From a virus: DNA of 34,274 nucleotides. Made by a program: the position numbers and the translations under genes. The DNA is taken from positions 1 to 34,274 of IMG/VR virus record IMGVR_UViG_3300032018_000395; one strand, written 5' to 3'. The notes under the pieces are model-generated. The model was not told the origin of the DNA. It ran no database searches and worked only from the letters and a program-made list of their open reading frames with translations. This document shows positions 1 to 6,317 of this stretch, piece by piece (positions within the stretch are counted from its first letter, which is position 1; each line of letters begins with the position of its first letter).

Positions 1-858
1 TTAATCCAGTAGAGTGGGAGTAAGCAGGTCTTCCCGATGCAAGCCGTGTCCAATGAACCCGGCAAAGCGCTCACGCTCCCCTGTTGCGCCCAAGTCATAC
101 ACATCGTGCGCATAGCGGCTCATCATCCTGATGGCAGGTTTTGCCACGCCGTAGTCACTGGCGGCCAACACGGCTACCGTATGTCCTTGCGCCTTGGCCT
201 CGTCCAAGGTGATACCTTTGACGGCAGCTTCCCCGCGTGTGGTGGCACTGAGTTTGTCCATGCCGCGCAGGTCCATTACTTCAATTAAATGAAGCTGTCC
301 GTTCATCAGTGCAAGATCGGCATACAGATCGGCAGACGGATCAATGGGATAGTTGGCGATCACGCGGTGTTTGCCCAGGTCTTCAATCTTGGTGCTGAAC
401 GCCTTGGAATGTTTGAGCCATTGGCGCAGTTCAAGCCCCAGACGGGTGGGCTTCTTGCTTGGATTGCGCGTTGCGCGGACGTTGACAGACTGACGGTTGA
501 CTTGCCATTCCATCAGACCCGCCAGCGTGGCTTGAGGGTCTTCCTCATTGAGTTCGGTGCTACCCGGCTCGCTGTCGGCAATAAAGGGATGCACCAACAG
601 GGGTAACAGGGATATTTGCTGTTGCACTGTCAGCTTGGACGCATAGCCTGCAAGGGCAGTTTGCACCTTGTCAGCCCACTGACCCAAGTGCACGGCACCG
701 AAGTCTGGGTGCAGGGCCTTGAGGCGGGAGGCGTCTTGCGTCAGCGCGACCACGGCTACATTGGGAGTAAACAGCACAATCCCAGCGTTCAGGCTTTCGC
801 CGCGCGCCGTATTTTGCGCACGCAAAACAACAAAGGGGGCAAAGGTATCGGTGTTCAT
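1..858 (-). CDS. DUF3037-type protein, partner of the HipA-like kinase
   Basis: This 285-residue protein has an N-terminal region (about residues 5-35) with the GE-x-LNAGIVLF pattern typical of DUF3037 proteins, which are often encoded next to HipA-like kinases. The C-terminal half contains a hydrophobic strand reading LHLIEVMDL and an A/K-rich helix, and I cannot assign it to a family. The start chosen is the ATG at 858, because it overlaps the kinase stop codon as ATGA; an upstream in-frame start at 879 would overlap the kinase gene by 25 bases. It is the last gene of the repressor-kinase-DUF3037 operon seen here, so it is probably expressed in the lysogen. Its biochemical function is unknown. 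A role as modulator, antitoxin or substrate of the kinase is inference from gene pairing. Confidence 0.7.
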   Translation of the reverse strand: MNTDTFAPFVVLRAQNTARGESLNAGIVLFTPNVAVVALTQDASRLKALHPDFGAVHLGQWADKVQTALAGYASKLTVQQQISLLPLLVHPFIADSEPGSTELNEEDPQATLAGLMEWQVNRQSVNVRATRNPSKKPTRLGLELRQWLKHSKAFSTKIEDLGKHRVIANYPIDPSADLYADLALMNGQLHLIEVMDLRGMDKLSATTRGEAAVKGITLDEAKAQGHTVAVLAASDYGVAKPAIRMMSRYAHDVYDLGATGERERFAGFIGHGLHREDLLTPTLLD

Positions 859-1583
859 GGCTGGCAGTATTGCACGCATTTTGACACATGGGCGTGAAAG
901 TGGTCATTTCCCCACCAGGTCAAAAGTCTGCTTTTTTGATCATCCGCAAGCCACACTTCTGGCATGGCATCAAGCCACACCCCAAGAGTGGAGGGCGATA
1001 TTTGCGATAGGGTACCCAACGCCATCAGGGCTTGAGGAGCGCGCCACAGGCCCAGGGCTCGCACTATTTTCAGGTGGTTGGTGGTGGCGCTGTGGGCGGC
1101 GGTCAGATCCGCCGGTGGCCAGCCCGCAACCCACCAGGCGTGCGAATAGTCAATGGGCATGATGGTGCGTTGGTTCAGGCTGTTACATCTAAACAGAAAG
1201 TTACCAAAGTGCCGGTCAGCATTGGCAATAAAGAGGTCTAGCGCATAGGCAATGCTGAGGCGGTCAGCGCAGTCAGCCAAGTATTGGTCGGGCGGAGTGC
1301 CGGCCTTCACGTCGTCCTGCATATTGGAAAGGCCCACCTCGATGCGGCTGCCAAAGGCACGGGACCCATCAGGCATGACAAGTACAGCACACGCGGGGCA
1401 CCCAAGTCCTACCGATTGGGCTAGTTGGTAGCAGAACCACTCGCTGGCAGGCAGCATGGCGTGTTCGGTTTGGGCCTTAACTGCGTAGTCAAAGCCGTCC
1501 TCGGCAATCGCGTTGGTTTGCAGCGTCTTACCCCGGCCAATGGGTGGCACCAGCTTGGAGACACGCAGTTCAAATAGGCTCAT
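855..1583 (-). CDS. HipA-like (HipA_2-type) protein kinase
   Basis: The 242-residue protein keeps the core of a HipA-fold Ser/Thr kinase. A candidate ATP-binding lysine sits at K36 (YAVKAQ) with an acidic partner at E48. The catalytic loop N-A-D-R-H-F-G-N spans residues 121-128, with D123 and N128 as predicted catalytic residues, and the metal-binding aspartate is D145 (MPIDYS). It is much shorter than classical HipA (about 440 residues) and lacks the N-terminal subdomain that contacts HipB, so it resembles the short HipA-like kinases paired with DUF3037 proteins. The start ATG overlaps the repressor stop as ATGA, and its own stop overlaps the next start in the same way. The substrate is unknown. 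Co-expression with a phage repressor suggests a function in the lysogen, for example growth arrest or phage exclusion. Confidence 0.8.
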   Translation of the reverse strand: MSLFELRVSKLVPPIGRGKTLQTNAIAEDGFDYAVKAQTEHAMLPASEWFCYQLAQSVGLGCPACAVLVMPDGSRAFGSRIEVGLSNMQDDVKAGTPPDQYLADCADRLSIAYALDLFIANADRHFGNFLFRCNSLNQRTIMPIDYSHAWWVAGWPPADLTAAHSATTNHLKIVRALGLWRAPQALMALGTLSQISPSTLGVWLDAMPEVWLADDQKSRLLTWWGNDHFHAHVSKCVQYCQP

Positions 1584-2152
1584 AACTTAGCCACAGATAC
1601 TTTGCTAGTCGGCGGAAGCCCTGCATGGTGGTTGGTTTCAAACTGTGCACTGGGCGTCAACTCTGCCTCGATGGCTTTAGCGTAAAGAGGGTTGTCTGGG
1701 CTACGCACGAGCAGAGCAAAAAGATTTACCAAGTTGTCGCGTTTGTCGGGACCGGCAAGTTTTATCAATGCTCCCAGCCGAGCCAGCGTGTCTGCCAAGG
1801 TGGTTGACTGGTTAGTCGATGGCGTTGCAGTCATTCCCAGGGTGATCGAAGGAACGAGCGTGTTAATGGTGGAACTGGTGGTATCGGCTCTGGATAAGTG
1901 CGCCTCATCAATGATGGTCATGTCAAACCAGCTAAGAGGGCGTTTATTAGCGTAAGCCCGAGCTATAGCTCGAGCTGCATCAGGCCCCATATTTTTCTTG
2001 ATTCCCTTATAGAGTTGGTAGATGTATTCCTCATCTAAACCGGAGCATGAGGCAACCGCCCTATAGCCCAACCGAAGTTTCCCGCCGGCACTTTTTGCCT
2101 CTGCGTCCACTAGAGCGCGCAAATTTTCAATTCTGTTTTCTTCGGCTGCCAT
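1580..2152 (-). CDS. CI-like phage repressor, no peptidase domain
   Basis: This 190-residue protein reads divergently from the Cro-like gene across a multi-operator region, which is the position of a lysogeny repressor. Residues 30-55 form a helix-turn-helix whose putative recognition segment DEEYIYQLYKG (40-50) closely resembles the Cro-like protein's DEQYLYQVAKG. The rest is a polar linker followed by a helical segment (about residues 120-150). I see no LexA/S24 Ser-Lys peptidase domain and no Ala-Gly cleavage site, so classical RecA-stimulated self-cleavage is not supported. The ATG at 2152 is preferred over an in-frame TTG at 2164, which lies inside an operator palindrome. No strong ribosome binding site precedes it. 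It heads the operon with the HipA-like kinase. Confidence 0.75.
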   Translation of the reverse strand: MAAEENRIENLRALVDAEAKSAGGKLRLGYRAVASCSGLDEEYIYQLYKGIKKNMGPDAARAIARAYANKRPLSWFDMTIIDEAHLSRADTTSSTINTLVPSITLGMTATPSTNQSTTLADTLARLGALIKLAGPDKRDNLVNLFALLVRSPDNPLYAKAIEAELTPSAQFETNHHAGLPPTSKVSVAKL

Positions 2153-2160
2153 AACGCCAT

Positions 2161-2177
2161 TCAAGCAGACTGCTTGA
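2161..2177. promoter_or_regulatory. Operator 1 (repressor side)
   Basis: This is a perfect 8-bp inverted repeat around one central base, TCAAGCAGACTGCTTGA. Its inner 15 bases fit CWAGC-N5-GCTWG. It lies just upstream of the repressor ATG and covers the expected leftward transcription start. Occupancy would repress the repressor gene itself, comparable to lambda OR3. Binding is inferred from symmetry and position. Confidence 0.65.
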
Positions 2178-2204
2178 AAATATATCTAGCCAATGGCTTG
2201 ACAA
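2177..2204 (-). promoter_or_regulatory. Leftward repressor promoter (pRM-like)
   Basis: On the minus strand TTGTCA (2204-2199) is followed after 16 bp by TATTTT (2182-2177); an alternative -10, TATATT (2184-2179), has a shorter 14-bp spacer. Its -35 overlaps the rightward -35 almost completely, so the two promoters are mutually exclusive or co-regulated. The expected start lies inside operator 1, giving a leader of about 18 nt before the ATG at 2152. Confidence 0.5.
2186..2200. promoter_or_regulatory. Operator 2 (middle)
   Basis: CTAGCCAATGGCTTG is an imperfect palindrome of the form CWAGC-N5-GCTWG. Its centre is 24 bp from operator 1 and 22 bp from operator 3, so all three sites lie near the same face of the helix. 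It touches the overlapping -35 elements of both divergent promoters. Confidence 0.6.
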
Positions 2205-2225
2205 CAGCTAGCGTATGGCTAGAAT
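2198..2225 (+). promoter_or_regulatory. Rightward early promoter (pR-like)
   Basis: A consensus -35 box TTGACA (2198-2203) is separated by 16 bp from a near-consensus -10 box TAGAAT (2220-2225). The expected transcription start is at about 2231-2233, essentially on the ATG of the Cro-like gene, so that transcript may be leaderless. Operators 2 and 3 overlap the promoter elements, as expected for repression by the CI-like protein. Confidence 0.75.
2208..2222. promoter_or_regulatory. Operator 3 (Cro side)
   Basis: CTAGCGTATGGCTAG has perfect 5-bp arms around five central bases. It fills most of the spacer and overlaps the -10 box of the rightward promoter, so bound repressor would exclude RNA polymerase. 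An in-frame ATG at 2215 falls inside this site, one reason to prefer 2233 as the Cro-like start. Confidence 0.65.
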
Positions 2226-2232
2226 TATCAAC

Positions 2233-2505
2233 ATGGCACTCCCAATTTATAGCCCTGATCGACGGCGTGAAGTCGCTCAAAAGCTCGAAATAGACGAGCA
2301 ATACCTCTATCAGGTCGCAAAAGGGTTGCGGGTAGCAAGCCCAGCCCTTGCGCGCAAATGGCATGAAATTGATCCTGATGCCGACTTGAAAGAGCTTCGC
2401 CCCGACGATTGGAACCTGATCTGGCCCGAGTTGATCGGCACCGAAGGATCGCCAGACCTCGCGCATTTGGCACCAGCCAGCGCCACAGCCGGGCAGGGGG
2501 TTTGA
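2233..2505 (+). CDS. Cro-like DNA-binding regulator
   Basis: This 90-residue protein carries an N-terminal helix-turn-helix at residues 9-34, with recognition-like segment DEQYLYQVAKG at 21-31. The C-terminal tail is Ala/Gly-rich and probably disordered. It lies opposite the repressor and directly downstream of the rightward promoter. The resemblance of its recognition helix to that of the repressor suggests both read the same operators, the usual Cro-CI logic. The ATG at 2233 (MALP) is chosen over the ATG at 2215, because the latter lies inside operator 3 and upstream of the predicted transcription start. No Shine-Dalgarno sequence is visible, consistent with a leaderless message. YdaS-like small regulators are an alternative family label. 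Confidence 0.7.
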   Translation: MALPIYSPDRRREVAQKLEIDEQYLYQVAKGLRVASPALARKWHEIDPDADLKELRPDDWNLIWPELIGTEGSPDLAHLAPASATAGQGV

Positions 2506-2588
2506 GATGCGCGTTGACCTATTGCCGAACCATGAAGCTAGATTTTTAGAGTCAGTCTTTGGGCCGCTTGACCCTGCAACCCCAATCC

Positions 2589-2873
2589 CTACGGATTTGC
2601 TCGAACCCAAGTCATTAGAGCTTTGTCTATCAGGCAGTGCTCGTCCAGCGGGACAACCCATGTCCGCTGCTCCGGTCGCCATAGGTGATGAAACCCTTTG
2701 TACACGTCTGAAACAGGGCGATCCGACATGAACGCAATTGCTGTCATTCCGGCGCCGCCTTCCCCATATTTCATGCGTTCGCCTGCCACAGATTTGATTG
2801 CATCCCGAACTTCCGGTGCATATCCGCGCAAATCCTCCTGCTTGCAAAACATCAACGCCAAAAACGGTTTCAT
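2589..2873 (-). CDS. Small protein of unknown function, antisense within the early region
   Basis: This 94-residue protein is encoded opposite to the surrounding early genes. Start ATG 2873 has a good ribosome binding site (AGGAAAGGG on the minus strand, roughly 6 nt upstream), so it is preferred over an in-frame ATG at 2912. The protein has a hydrophobic N-terminus (MKPFLALMF), an amphipathic middle, and a Trp-rich C-terminal half (HLWRPEQRTWVV). I recognise no domain. Its position between Cro-like and CII-like genes, read against the early transcript, suggests an independent small cassette or an antisense regulatory unit. No convincing promoter was found upstream of it. Codon texture looks protein-like, unlike the plus-strand reading of the same DNA. 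Confidence 0.55.
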   Translation of the reverse strand: MKPFLALMFCKQEDLRGYAPEVRDAIKSVAGERMKYGEGGAGMTAIAFMSDRPVSDVYKGFHHLWRPEQRTWVVPLDEHCLIDKALMTWVRANP

Positions 2874-3031
2874 GGGCGTCCCTTTCCTGAATGGTTGTGT
2901 TGGAGCTTCCATTGTCCAGGCAAATCGGACGCCCGCTCAGCATCCAGGCGGGCAGAGCGTCGGCGACGTGAATCCAGGTGATTTTGTTCATGCAGCGAGT
3001 CTGCTTTTTTTTGAATTAAAGAGGTAGTCAA
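2874..3031. other. Divergent intergenic region before the CII-like gene
   Basis: This stretch separates the start of the minus-strand small gene from the GTG of the CII-like gene. It contains a GCCCGC/GCGGGC hairpin (2931-2953) without a U-tract and a run of eight T (3005-3012). I see no convincing -35/-10 pair on either strand. Confidence 0.4.
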
Positions 3032-3463
3032 GTGACGTCAAAAGATTTGCATTGGCATGACGGACAGGGCGAACTGATCCTTTTACGTCGTGCCGAACCC
3101 AACGAAGTACCAATGGAAATGATCCGTCGGCAAAAGACGGCAGCGTCAGCTTTTGCGCTGGCTTGCCAGTCTTCTGGTCTCGAAGACAAAGAAATTTACG
3201 GTGGTCTCGGCATTGATGCTGGCTATTTCTCGCGCATCAAAAAGGGTGAGGCCACCCTGCAAGCTGATCTTGTTCCTGTTTTCTGTGAACTGGTTGGAAA
3301 CCGAATCTACCCCGAGTGGATGGCCTACAAACTGGGCTGCACGCTGGTGCAGATCAAGAGCGAGGCTGAGCGCCGTCTAGAACTGTCAGAGCAAGCCCTT
3401 GCGGCGGAGCGCGTCAAGGTCCGGGTACTGACCGACGCCATTAATGGGCGGGCAGTCGCATGA
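3032..3463 (+). CDS. CII-like phage transcriptional regulator
   Basis: This 143-residue protein contains a helix-turn-helix at about residues 51-72 (DKEIYGGLGIDAGYFSRIKKG) and a long charged C-terminal helix from about 108 to 138 that could mediate oligomerisation. It starts with GTG, preceded by AGAGG about 8 nt upstream. It is the first gene of the ATGA-coupled early operon and follows the Cro-like gene, the place where lambdoid phages encode CII or replication regulators. The assignment as regulator rests on the helix-turn-helix and on position; whether it activates repressor synthesis is inference. No CII-type target promoter was recognised. Confidence 0.55.
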   Translation: MTSKDLHWHDGQGELILLRRAEPNEVPMEMIRRQKTAASAFALACQSSGLEDKEIYGGLGIDAGYFSRIKKGEATLQADLVPVFCELVGNRIYPEWMAYKLGCTLVQIKSEAERRLELSEQALAAERVKVRVLTDAINGRAVA

Positions 3464-3798
3464 GCCTATACGACGACCTACTGGCCTATGCCGTGAGCGT
3501 AGGAGACTTTTGGCCATGCGGGACACCCCGCAGCACCGATACCGATTTTGCATTGCAACAACAAGCGCCAGCAGTGGTAGTCGAACCAACGGCACCGCTG
3601 ACAAAAAAAGAGCGCGACAAAATTTACCAACGGGAGTACGCCAAAGCGCACTACATCCCGGCCGCCCGGCGAGCATCACTCAAGGCGGCGGCGACCCGGG
3701 TGAACCCAACAAGCGACATTGCAACGACAAAGCAACATCGCGCGGCGCTCGATAAAAACAATGCGATCCGTGGTGGTGGCAAATGGACGCGCGCATGA
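3460..3798 (+). CDS. Small early protein of unknown function
   Basis: This 112-residue protein overlaps the previous gene as ATGA and is followed by another ATGA overlap. It has a short acidic and aromatic N-terminus (residues 1-20), a Pro/Val-rich linker, and a basic helical region (about 47-85, KKERDKIYQREYAKAHY) resembling nucleic-acid-binding basic helices. The C-terminus is rich in basic and small residues. I do not recognise the family. Its place in the operon directly before the helicase/methyltransferase suggests an accessory role in DNA metabolism or gene control, which is inference only. Confidence 0.6.
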   Translation: MSLYDDLLAYAVSVGDFWPCGTPRSTDTDFALQQQAPAVVVEPTAPLTKKERDKIYQREYAKAHYIPAARRASLKAAATRVNPTSDIATTKQHRAALDKNNAIRGGGKWTRA

Positions 3799-6317
3799 CT
3801 GACTACGCCACCTTCTTGCGCCAAAAGATTCGCATGGCGAGCTTCAAGGGTTTTGATGTTCCACTGGAGCAGATCAACACCGGGTTGAAGCCCCATACCC
3901 GCGACATCGTGCGCTGGGCCGTGCAGGGTGGCAACCGCGCCATATTTGCCAGTTTCGGGCTCCATAAAACTGCCACCCAGTTGGAGATCATGCGCCAGAT
4001 CGGAATCCACCGGCCGGGCCTGCGTCTGTTGGTGATGCCGTTGGGCATCCGGCAGGAATTCAAACGCGAGGTCGAGCTGCGTTTTCAGGGCGACTGCGCC
4101 GTGGACCTGCGCTTCATTCGCGCCGCCGCCGAGATTGACGATCCCGACACGATCTACATGACCAACTATGAATCGGTGCGCGAAGGCAAGATTGATGTCA
4201 GCAAGTTCCGTGCGACCAGCCTGGACGAGGCGAGCGTATTGCGCAGCTACGGCAGCAAGACTTATCAGGAGTTCCTGCCAGCCTTCGCGCCGGTCGAATT
4301 CAAGTTTGTCGCCACCGCCACACCAAGCCCGAACCGGTTCAAGGAACTGATCCACTACGCCGGCTACCTGGGCGTCATGGATACCGGGCAGGCCTTGACA
4401 CGCTTTTTTCAGCGAGACAGCGAGAAGGCTGGAAACCTGACGCTGTACCCACACAAAGAAGAAGAATTTTGGTTGTGGGTGGCAAGCTGGGCCGTTTTCA
4501 TTCAGCGCCCGAGCGACCTTGGCCACAGTGATGAAGGCTACATCCTGCCAGACCTCGATGTCCGCTACCACGAAGTCCCCAGCGACTATGCGGCGTCCGG
4601 TACCGAGAAGAACGGCCAGGGGCTGTTGATCCCTGATGTGGCCATGGGCCTGTCGGCGGCTGCCAGTGAGAAGCGCGGCAGCATGGACGCGCGCATTGCC
4701 GTGGTGGCTGACCTGATCGAGCAGGATCCGGCTGACCACTTCATTGTCTGGCATGACCTTGAAGACGAGCGCCATGCCATTCAAGCCGCCATCCCCGAGG
4801 CGGTCAGCGTTTGGGGTAGCCAAGATCTGGAAGAACGCGAGAACCGGATCGTTCGGTTCAGCGATGGCCATGATCGCATCGTGTCCACCAAACCGGTTAT
4901 CGCCGGCAGCGGCTGCAACCTGCAGCGCCATTGCCACCGCGAGATTTTCGCGGGCATCGGTTTCAAGTTCAACGACTTTATCCAGTCCATCCACCGCGTC
5001 CACCGCTTTGGCCAGACCAAGCCGGTTCGCATCGACATCGTTCACACCGAGTCCGAGCGTGAGGTACTGCGCACGCTGCTGGCTAAGTGGGATCAACACA
5101 ACGAAATGGGGAAGAAGATGACCGACATCATTCGCAAATTCGGTTTGAACCAACTGGCCATGCAAGAGGTGCTGGCGCGCTCCATCGGCGTCAAGCGAAT
5201 TGCTGTTGAGGGCGACCTTTTCAGTGTCGCAAATAACGACTGTGTGGAAGAAGCCCGTCTGCAGCCGGAGAACTCGGTCGACCAGATCATCACCAGCATC
5301 CCGTTCGCCAACCATTACGAATACACGCCGAGTTATAACGACTTCGGCCACACCCAGGACAACGCGCACTTTTGGGCGCAGATGGACTACCTGACGCCCG
5401 AGCTGCTGCGCATTCTCAAGCCTGGCCGCATCTACTGCTGCCACGTCAAGGACCGGATCAACTTTGGCAATGTCACCGGCGCCGGCGTGCCAACGGTCAG
5501 TCCATTCCACGCCGAGGCGCTGTTCCACGGACTGAAGCATGGATTTGACTACTTGGGGATGATCACCGTGGTCACCGACGTCGTGCACGAGAACAATCAG
5601 ACCTACCGGCTGGGCTACACCGAAATGTGCAAGGACGGCACCAAGATGGGCGTGGGCTCACCTGAGTACGTGCTGCTGTTTCACAAGCCCCAGACCGACC
5701 GCGGGCGCGGCTACGCCGATCAACCGGTCGTGAAGTCAAAGGCTGAATCCAGCCTGGCGCGCTGGCAGGTCGATGCACACGCATTCTGGCGCTCCAGCGG
5801 CAACCGCCTGCTGTCTGCCGAAGAAATGGCCAGCTACGGGCCCGGCAAGCTGGCCAAGATGTTTACGGACTACAGTTTGCAAAACGTCTATGACTACGAG
5901 TTCCACGTCAAGATCGGCGAGGAACTACTGGAGCGTCAGGCGCTGCCGTCCACCTTCATGAGCTTGGCACCTGGCAGCCATTGCCCCGACGTGTGGCACG
6001 ACATCAATCGCATGCGCACACTCAACGGCGACCAGACCAATCGCGCCGTCGAGAAGCACGTCTGCCCGCTCCAGTTCGACATCGTTGACCGCCTGATCGA
6101 GCGCTACAGCACGAAGGGCGAGCGCATTTATGACCCGTTTTGCGGTCTCGGAACCGTGCCCTATCGAGCCATCCTCAAGGGGCGCACCGGTGGCGGCTCA
6201 GAACTCAGCGCAGCCTATTTCATGGACCAGGTGCACTACCTCAAGTCGGCAGAGCGTGAAGTCAGCATGCCCAGCCTTTTTGCGATGGAAGAGGCCGAAG
6301 AACTGGAGACAGCATGA
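3795..6317 (+). CDS. SNF2-like helicase and DNA methyltransferase fusion
   Basis: This 840-residue protein combines two modules. The N-terminal half looks like a superfamily 2 helicase/ATPase: a degenerate P-loop (FGLHKTA, 54-60), an LDEAS motif in the DEAD/H position (143-147), ATATPSP (173-179) and a SNF2-type motif VI, Q-S-I-H-R-V-H-R-F-G-Q (397-407). The C-terminal half is a beta-class N4/N6 methyltransferase: the catalytic motif is SIPF (501-504) where DPPY/SPPY is usual, and the SAM-binding motif DPFCGLGT (780-787) comes after it. The likely role is DNA modification of the phage genome, perhaps coupled to translocation. The ATG at 3795 forms an ATGA overlap with the previous gene; an in-frame ATG at 3783 is also possible. 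I recall phage relatives that share SIPF, so the methylase may still be active. The helicase P-loop is less certain. Confidence 0.8.
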   Translation: MTDYATFLRQKIRMASFKGFDVPLEQINTGLKPHTRDIVRWAVQGGNRAIFASFGLHKTATQLEIMRQIGIHRPGLRLLVMPLGIRQEFKREVELRFQGDCAVDLRFIRAAAEIDDPDTIYMTNYESVREGKIDVSKFRATSLDEASVLRSYGSKTYQEFLPAFAPVEFKFVATATPSPNRFKELIHYAGYLGVMDTGQALTRFFQRDSEKAGNLTLYPHKEEEFWLWVASWAVFIQRPSDLGHSDEGYILPDLDVRYHEVPSDYAASGTEKNGQGLLIPDVAMGLSAAASEKRGSMDARIAVVADLIEQDPADHFIVWHDLEDERHAIQAAIPEAVSVWGSQDLEERENRIVRFSDGHDRIVSTKPVIAGSGCNLQRHCHREIFAGIGFKFNDFIQSIHRVHRFGQTKPVRIDIVHTESEREVLRTLLAKWDQHNEMGKKMTDIIRKFGLNQLAMQEVLARSIGVKRIAVEGDLFSVANNDCVEEARLQPENSVDQIITSIPFANHYEYTPSYNDFGHTQDNAHFWAQMDYLTPELLRILKPGRIYCCHVKDRINFGNVTGAGVPTVSPFHAEALFHGLKHGFDYLGMITVVTDVVHENNQTYRLGYTEMCKDGTKMGVGSPEYVLLFHKPQTDRGRGYADQPVVKSKAESSLARWQVDAHAFWRSSGNRLLSAEEMASYGPGKLAKMFTDYSLQNVYDYEFHVKIGEELLERQALPSTFMSLAPGSHCPDVWHDINRMRTLNGDQTNRAVEKHVCPLQFDIVDRLIERYSTKGERIYDPFCGLGTVPYRAILKGRTGGGSELSAAYFMDQVHYLKSAEREVSMPSLFAMEEAEELETA

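Follow-up and report, generated by a model that had tools for sequence, protein, structure and literature searches.

Pairs of a HipA-family kinase and a DUF3037 protein are known as the PADLOC candidate system PDC-M66, and in a study of retrons, deleting HipA abolished defence against phage Bas51 while deleting DUF3037 was toxic, from which the authors concluded that DUF3037 neutralises a toxic kinase (PMC12548924). DefensePredictor recovered the same type of pair as DS-6, renamed HipAD, where mutating the kinase DS-6A abolishes defence and where DNA contact is predicted for DS-6B (PMC13092281). For HipAD, PMC13092281 refers to work from 2025 on prophage defences in E. coli (Brenes and Laub 2025), and on that account prophage-borne members are known. 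With this work published, the statement in a preliminary description of the present locus that HipA-like/DUF3037 pairs are poorly characterised is outdated. The name HipAD was reportedly given by Brenes and Laub in 2025.

We analysed an IMG/VR virus record over its full length of 34,274 bases (hereafter the window), the first base of which belongs to the minus-strand stop codon of DUF3037. Since the record starts exactly at this stop, anything 3' of the pair, the end of the operon, the integrase and the attachment site lie out of view. Read from a divergent control region, the minus-strand gene order is repressor, then HipA-family kinase, then DUF3037 protein (Table 1), and all three frames are open on translation. 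We found both ATGA overlaps by which the preliminary description had joined the three genes, and its HipA-like and DUF3037 identities are right, though the Pfam scores lie near threshold (HipA_2, E 4e-6 and 26.7 bits, just under the cut-off of 27; DUF3037, 22.6 bits, equal to the cut-off of 22.6). Searches of the window for tRNA and Rfam elements found none, and megablast of the phage structural genes, run for the host lineage, gave no matches.

Table 1. Features of the repressor-hipA-DUF3037 operon and its control region in the window.
Feature	Position	Strand	Basis
DUF3037 protein, 285 aa; putative antitoxin/sensor partner of the kinase	1..858	-	Profile matches, AlphaFold model
ATGA overlap, HipA stop / DUF3037 start	855..858	-	Sequence read; same 4-nt overlap in 40/58 surveyed pairs
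HipA-family kinase, 242 aa	855..1583	-	Profile matches; K36, E48, D123, N128, D145 conserved; PDB matches CtkA, HipT, HipA
ATGA overlap, repressor stop / HipA start	1580..1583	-	Sequence read
Phage repressor, 190 aa	1580..2152	-	HTH N-terminus, without S24 peptidase domain
SF2 helicase motifs II-III-like segment (DEAH ... TATP), repressor residues 76-111	1820..1927	-	Pfam ResIII, PHROG 16, alignment to 7clg
Operator-like palindrome TCAAGCAGACTGCTTGA	2161..2177		Sequence pattern
Promoter-like site for repressor-hipA-DUF3037, TTGTCA-16-TATTTT	2177..2204	-	Consensus match only
Operator-like site TCTAGCCAATGGCTTGA	2185..2201		Sequence pattern
Divergent early promoter-like site, TTGACA-16-TAGAAT	2198..2225	+	Consensus match only
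Operator-like site GCTAGCGTATGGCTAGA	2207..2223		Sequence pattern; half-sites kept in L126-L129
Divergent Cro-like HTH gene	2233..2505	+	PHROG 35 transcriptional repressor, E 3e-7; adjoins the repressor in L126-L129 too

Between the repressor and the Cro-like gene we found three 17-bp operator-like sites with centre spacings of 24 and 22 bp, and the hexamers of the two divergent promoter-like sites overlap them. The Cro-like ORF opens at 2215, and the start that we assign 18 bases further on agrees with its relatives. Both the Cro-like partner and the operator half-sites are kept in four relatives from IMG/VR (L126-L129) that share the N-terminus of the window repressor. Judged by its sequence, the control region is a lambda-type switch, with the repressor and the Cro-like gene diverging across three operator-like sites. 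The sole promoter-like site on the minus strand of positions 1-3100 is the one upstream of the repressor, within this three-operator switch, and such matches are no commoner than in shuffled sequence. Since no terminator-like site was found in 1-3100, read-through from the repressor to DUF3037 is the simplest reading, and the layout suggests that repressor, hipA and DUF3037 are co-transcribed.

We propose, with a probability of about 75%, that this is the lambda-like immunity operon of a temperate phage, the rex-like slot of which holds a HipAD-type anti-phage toxin-antitoxin pair that is expressed in the lysogen and whose kinase is released on infection. The repressor would bind the three operators between the two divergent promoters, keeping the early genes off and driving its own operon, and coupled translation would give the lysogen a steady supply of both HipA kinase and DUF3037. 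The latter would restrain the kinase until a phage outside the range of the repressor infects the cell; the kinase, now released, would phosphorylate a cellular target and stop growth or phage production. Here we infer the trigger of the kinase, its target and the activity of the window copy. Anti-phage defence is kinase-dependent in relatives (PMC12548924, PMC13092281), and by analogy the window locus would defend its host too. Counting against this explanation, the window pair is divergent and PADLOC recognises its DUF3037 half only.

The kinase matches PHROG 3162 over nearly its full length (E 2e-23), and K36, E48, D123, N128 and D145 are invariant across 40 aligned HipA proteins, which bears out the earlier naming of D123 and N128 as key kinase residues. 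Its AlphaFold model (pLDDT 90.8, pTM 0.90) matches the structures of HipA and HipT (Foldseek E about 3e-5 to 1e-4, VIA Z 9-11) and that of CtkA (Z 13.8). On this model, the kinase has the HipA fold with its catalytic residues intact. The best identity of the kinase to anything found is 34%. Against PADLOC PDC-M66A it gives no match at E 0.01, a model matched by 32 of the 40 aligned members, and so the exact PADLOC label is not claimed for the pair; with the members that do match PDC-M66A, the kinase aligns at about 30% identity. Pattern scans found no close relatives of window proteins P0001 and P0002 in IMG/VR, nor any of the window proteins in the phage collection.

The DUF3037 protein matches PHROG 5137 over most of its length (E 6e-8) and PADLOC PDC-M66B weakly and in residues 16-82 only (E 0.00068), the latter model being matched by 40 of 40 aligned DUF3037 members; its best identity to anything found is about 30%. 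In its AlphaFold model (mean pLDDT 85.9, pTM 0.61), the top structural matches of the C-terminal domain (residues ~133-276; window about 31-462, minus strand) are PD-(D/E)XK nucleases, namely PspGI (Z 8.6, 3.0 A over 116 residues), BsoBI (Z 8.1), Cdn1 (Z 8.1) and a CRISPR ancillary nuclease (Z 7.6). Since the best Foldseek E is weak (0.036) and unrelated folds reach Z 6, we take this nuclease likeness as a lead only. The conserved stretch A-(D/E)-x-x-L-(K)-N-G ... E-x-x-D could be the nuclease motif; since the position of the signature lysine of E-x-K is M, L or I (D181 and E193-V-M in the window protein), nuclease catalysis by DUF3037 is doubtful. A nuclease-like domain, as modelled, would fit the DNA contact predicted for DS-6B; DUF1829, which was reported for DS-6B, was found in 0 of 40 members.

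A toxic kinase with a restraining partner would also suit another purpose, that of a selfish stability or dormancy module that kills or stalls cells losing the prophage, with defence incidental. HipA-like kinases are toxic in relatives, as is the loss of DUF3037 (PMC12548924), and expression tied to the prophage would suit such a module. However, relatives protect against phages and need the kinase to do so (PMC12548924, PMC13092281), and the pair occupies the place of the rexAB exclusion genes, so we consider addiction unlikely.

Whether HipA-DUF3037 pairs recur beside prophage repressors, a question raised in the preliminary description, was addressed by alignment-guided scans of IMG/VR, which gave 61 virus contigs. 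HipA is directly followed by DUF3037 in 58 of the 61 (37 clusters at 90% kinase identity), mostly with the 4-nt overlap seen in the window (Table 1). Of 59 contexts (the adjacent pairs and one with a broken HipA), 44 have a repressor-type HTH gene on the same strand within 400 nt upstream of the kinase gene; for comparison, such a gene precedes 2 of 356 background ORFs from these contigs. The other 15 contexts include 8 with such a gene 750-1300 nt upstream and 2 at contig edges. Since the HTH model was seeded from the upstream genes themselves (the background was scored with the same model), an independent Pfam check was made on the 37 nearest upstream ORFs, and it found HTH_3 in 25 and Peptidase_S24 in 19. 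The earlier claim that the pair is wired to the repressor thus gains support, most of all from the recurrence beside repressors but also from the overlaps and the lone control region upstream, all of which suggest linked expression. A second group of contigs (L104, L105-L107, L109, L110, L112) carries one or two other genes, e.g. for a bPH/SHOCT-type protein, between the HTH gene and HipA-DUF3037, and in L091 a transposase-like ORF occupies the expected HipA position, next to a DUF3037 without detected HipA.

One lineage of the pair is present in 24 of 5426 complete E. coli genomes, and in three E. coli contexts the pair has an XRE repressor on one side and kil and/or gam-bet-exo genes on the other, which is the place of rexAB in lambda. 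The same order follows an S24 repressor in a Klebsiella plasmid record with phage genes, again at the rexAB position. Nearly identical pairs are preceded by repressors of quite different types. In the four closest relatives of the window repressor (L126-L129), different small genes lie downstream, and the stretch examined contains no HipAD; hence, the pair looks like exchangeable cargo, and the slot after the repressor looks like a cargo site of which HipAD is one occupant.

Such tight linkage to the repressor could also mean that the pair tunes the lysis-lysogeny choice of its own phage rather than acting on other phages, and there is a precedent in RexA, which is reported to do so at the lambda switch (cited in PMC12894663). 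But pairs also occur away from repressors, for example on a Rahnella plasmid without an adjoining one and, in Komagataeibacter, next to type I restriction genes. Hence, the pair does not need a phage switch, and a tuning role is quite improbable.

The repressor itself is unusual. Over residues 1-77 it shares 75% identity with the HTH of the S24 repressor in L002/L126, and three of its four closest relatives (L126, L127 and L128) continue into an S24-like domain; profile searches gave no match to an S24 peptidase domain in the window repressor. Where S24 stands in those three relatives, its HTH is followed by the helicase-like segment FDMTIIDEAHLSRADTTSSTINTLVPSITLGMTATP, which matches Pfam ResIII (E 7.6e-6, over the cut-off) and the PHROG 16 helicase (E 1.3e-8). 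Aligned to the 7clg helicase without gaps, 18 of 36 residues are identical (50%) with DEAH and TATP in register, and the score is 87 compared with a maximum of 40 in 20,000 shuffles. Since other helicase motifs are missing, the segment alone is not expected to be an ATPase, and since both of its joins are in frame, an assembly error is less likely. A genome scan with the C-terminal part of the repressor returned helicases only.

Kinship of the repressor tail with that of L129 was considered as well; the likeness is weak, with 151 of 20,000 shuffles as good, and common descent is not claimed. The phage's own helicase-methylase gene is not a visible source of the segment, there being no DNA match and weak protein similarity. 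In the product of this early gene (window 3783-6317, plus strand), a helicase-like N-terminal part is joined to a DNA N6/N4 methylase domain.

S24 repressors self-cleave on DNA damage. By analogy, loss of S24 would mean a repressor without self-cleavage on DNA damage. In L036, L067 and L070, too, HipA-DUF3037 comes after a short repressor in which no S24 domain is evident, so the absence of S24 is not unique to the window; the repressor ORFs of L067 and L070 share 17-20 nt with the start of HipA.

The missing S24 domain and the helicase fragment inside the repressor, together with Pfam scores at or just below cut-off, might be taken as signs of a decaying operon, with a broken, chimeric repressor and a pair that is a divergent, inactive remnant. 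However, none of the three frames is interrupted, the kinase retains its catalytic residues, both overlaps are intact, and relatives conserve the operators, and we regard decay as very improbable indeed. In a bolder version of the immunity-operon reading, DUF3037 would be an antitoxin that also senses the DNA of invading phages through a degenerate nuclease-like domain, and the repressor operon would offer a general, exchangeable slot to pairs of this kind. The repressor of this phage would have exchanged its SOS-cleavage domain for a segment derived from a helicase, and DNA damage would therefore no longer switch off the prophage and the pair. As a whole, this version has a small chance of being right.

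The family and its defence role were already known; what is added here is the survey of gene position, a repressor that lacks S24 and contains a helicase-like segment, and the nuclease-like fold predicted for DUF3037. In the window, a HipAD-type pair of divergent sequence lies within the immunity operon of a phage without a close match in the phage collection, and the survey makes the slot after the repressor the usual home of the pair in virus contigs. Hence, the pair is predicted to be made in every lysogen. The position after the repressor suggests a route to further prophage defence genes, and the nuclease-like fold, as modelled, leads to a testable hypothesis on the sensing of infection by the partner.

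With the HipBA and HipBST toxin-antitoxin systems, the window shares a HipA-fold kinase. No HipB or HipS partner was identified; judged by its relatives and its divergent Cro partner, the HTH gene before the kinase is a phage repressor, and the probable partner of the kinase is DUF3037. The resemblance to lambda cI-rexA-rexB and to RexABpp of Pseudomonas putida (PMC12894663) lies in a pair placed just after the prophage repressor in the operon, but the proteins are unrelated and the likeness is positional only. The HipA/DUF3037 pair associated with Retron-Sda1 has both domains and defends stand-alone (PMC12548924), whereas the window pair is tied to a phage repressor and is without retron genes. 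With HipAD (DS-6, PADLOC PDC-M66), the window shares a kinase gene followed by a DUF3037 gene, the 4-nt overlap of most surveyed members and the conserved catalytic residues, although the window pair is about 30% identical and its kinase misses the PADLOC model at E 0.01. At the level of sequence, then, the window pair has the HipAD architecture but is a divergent example of it.
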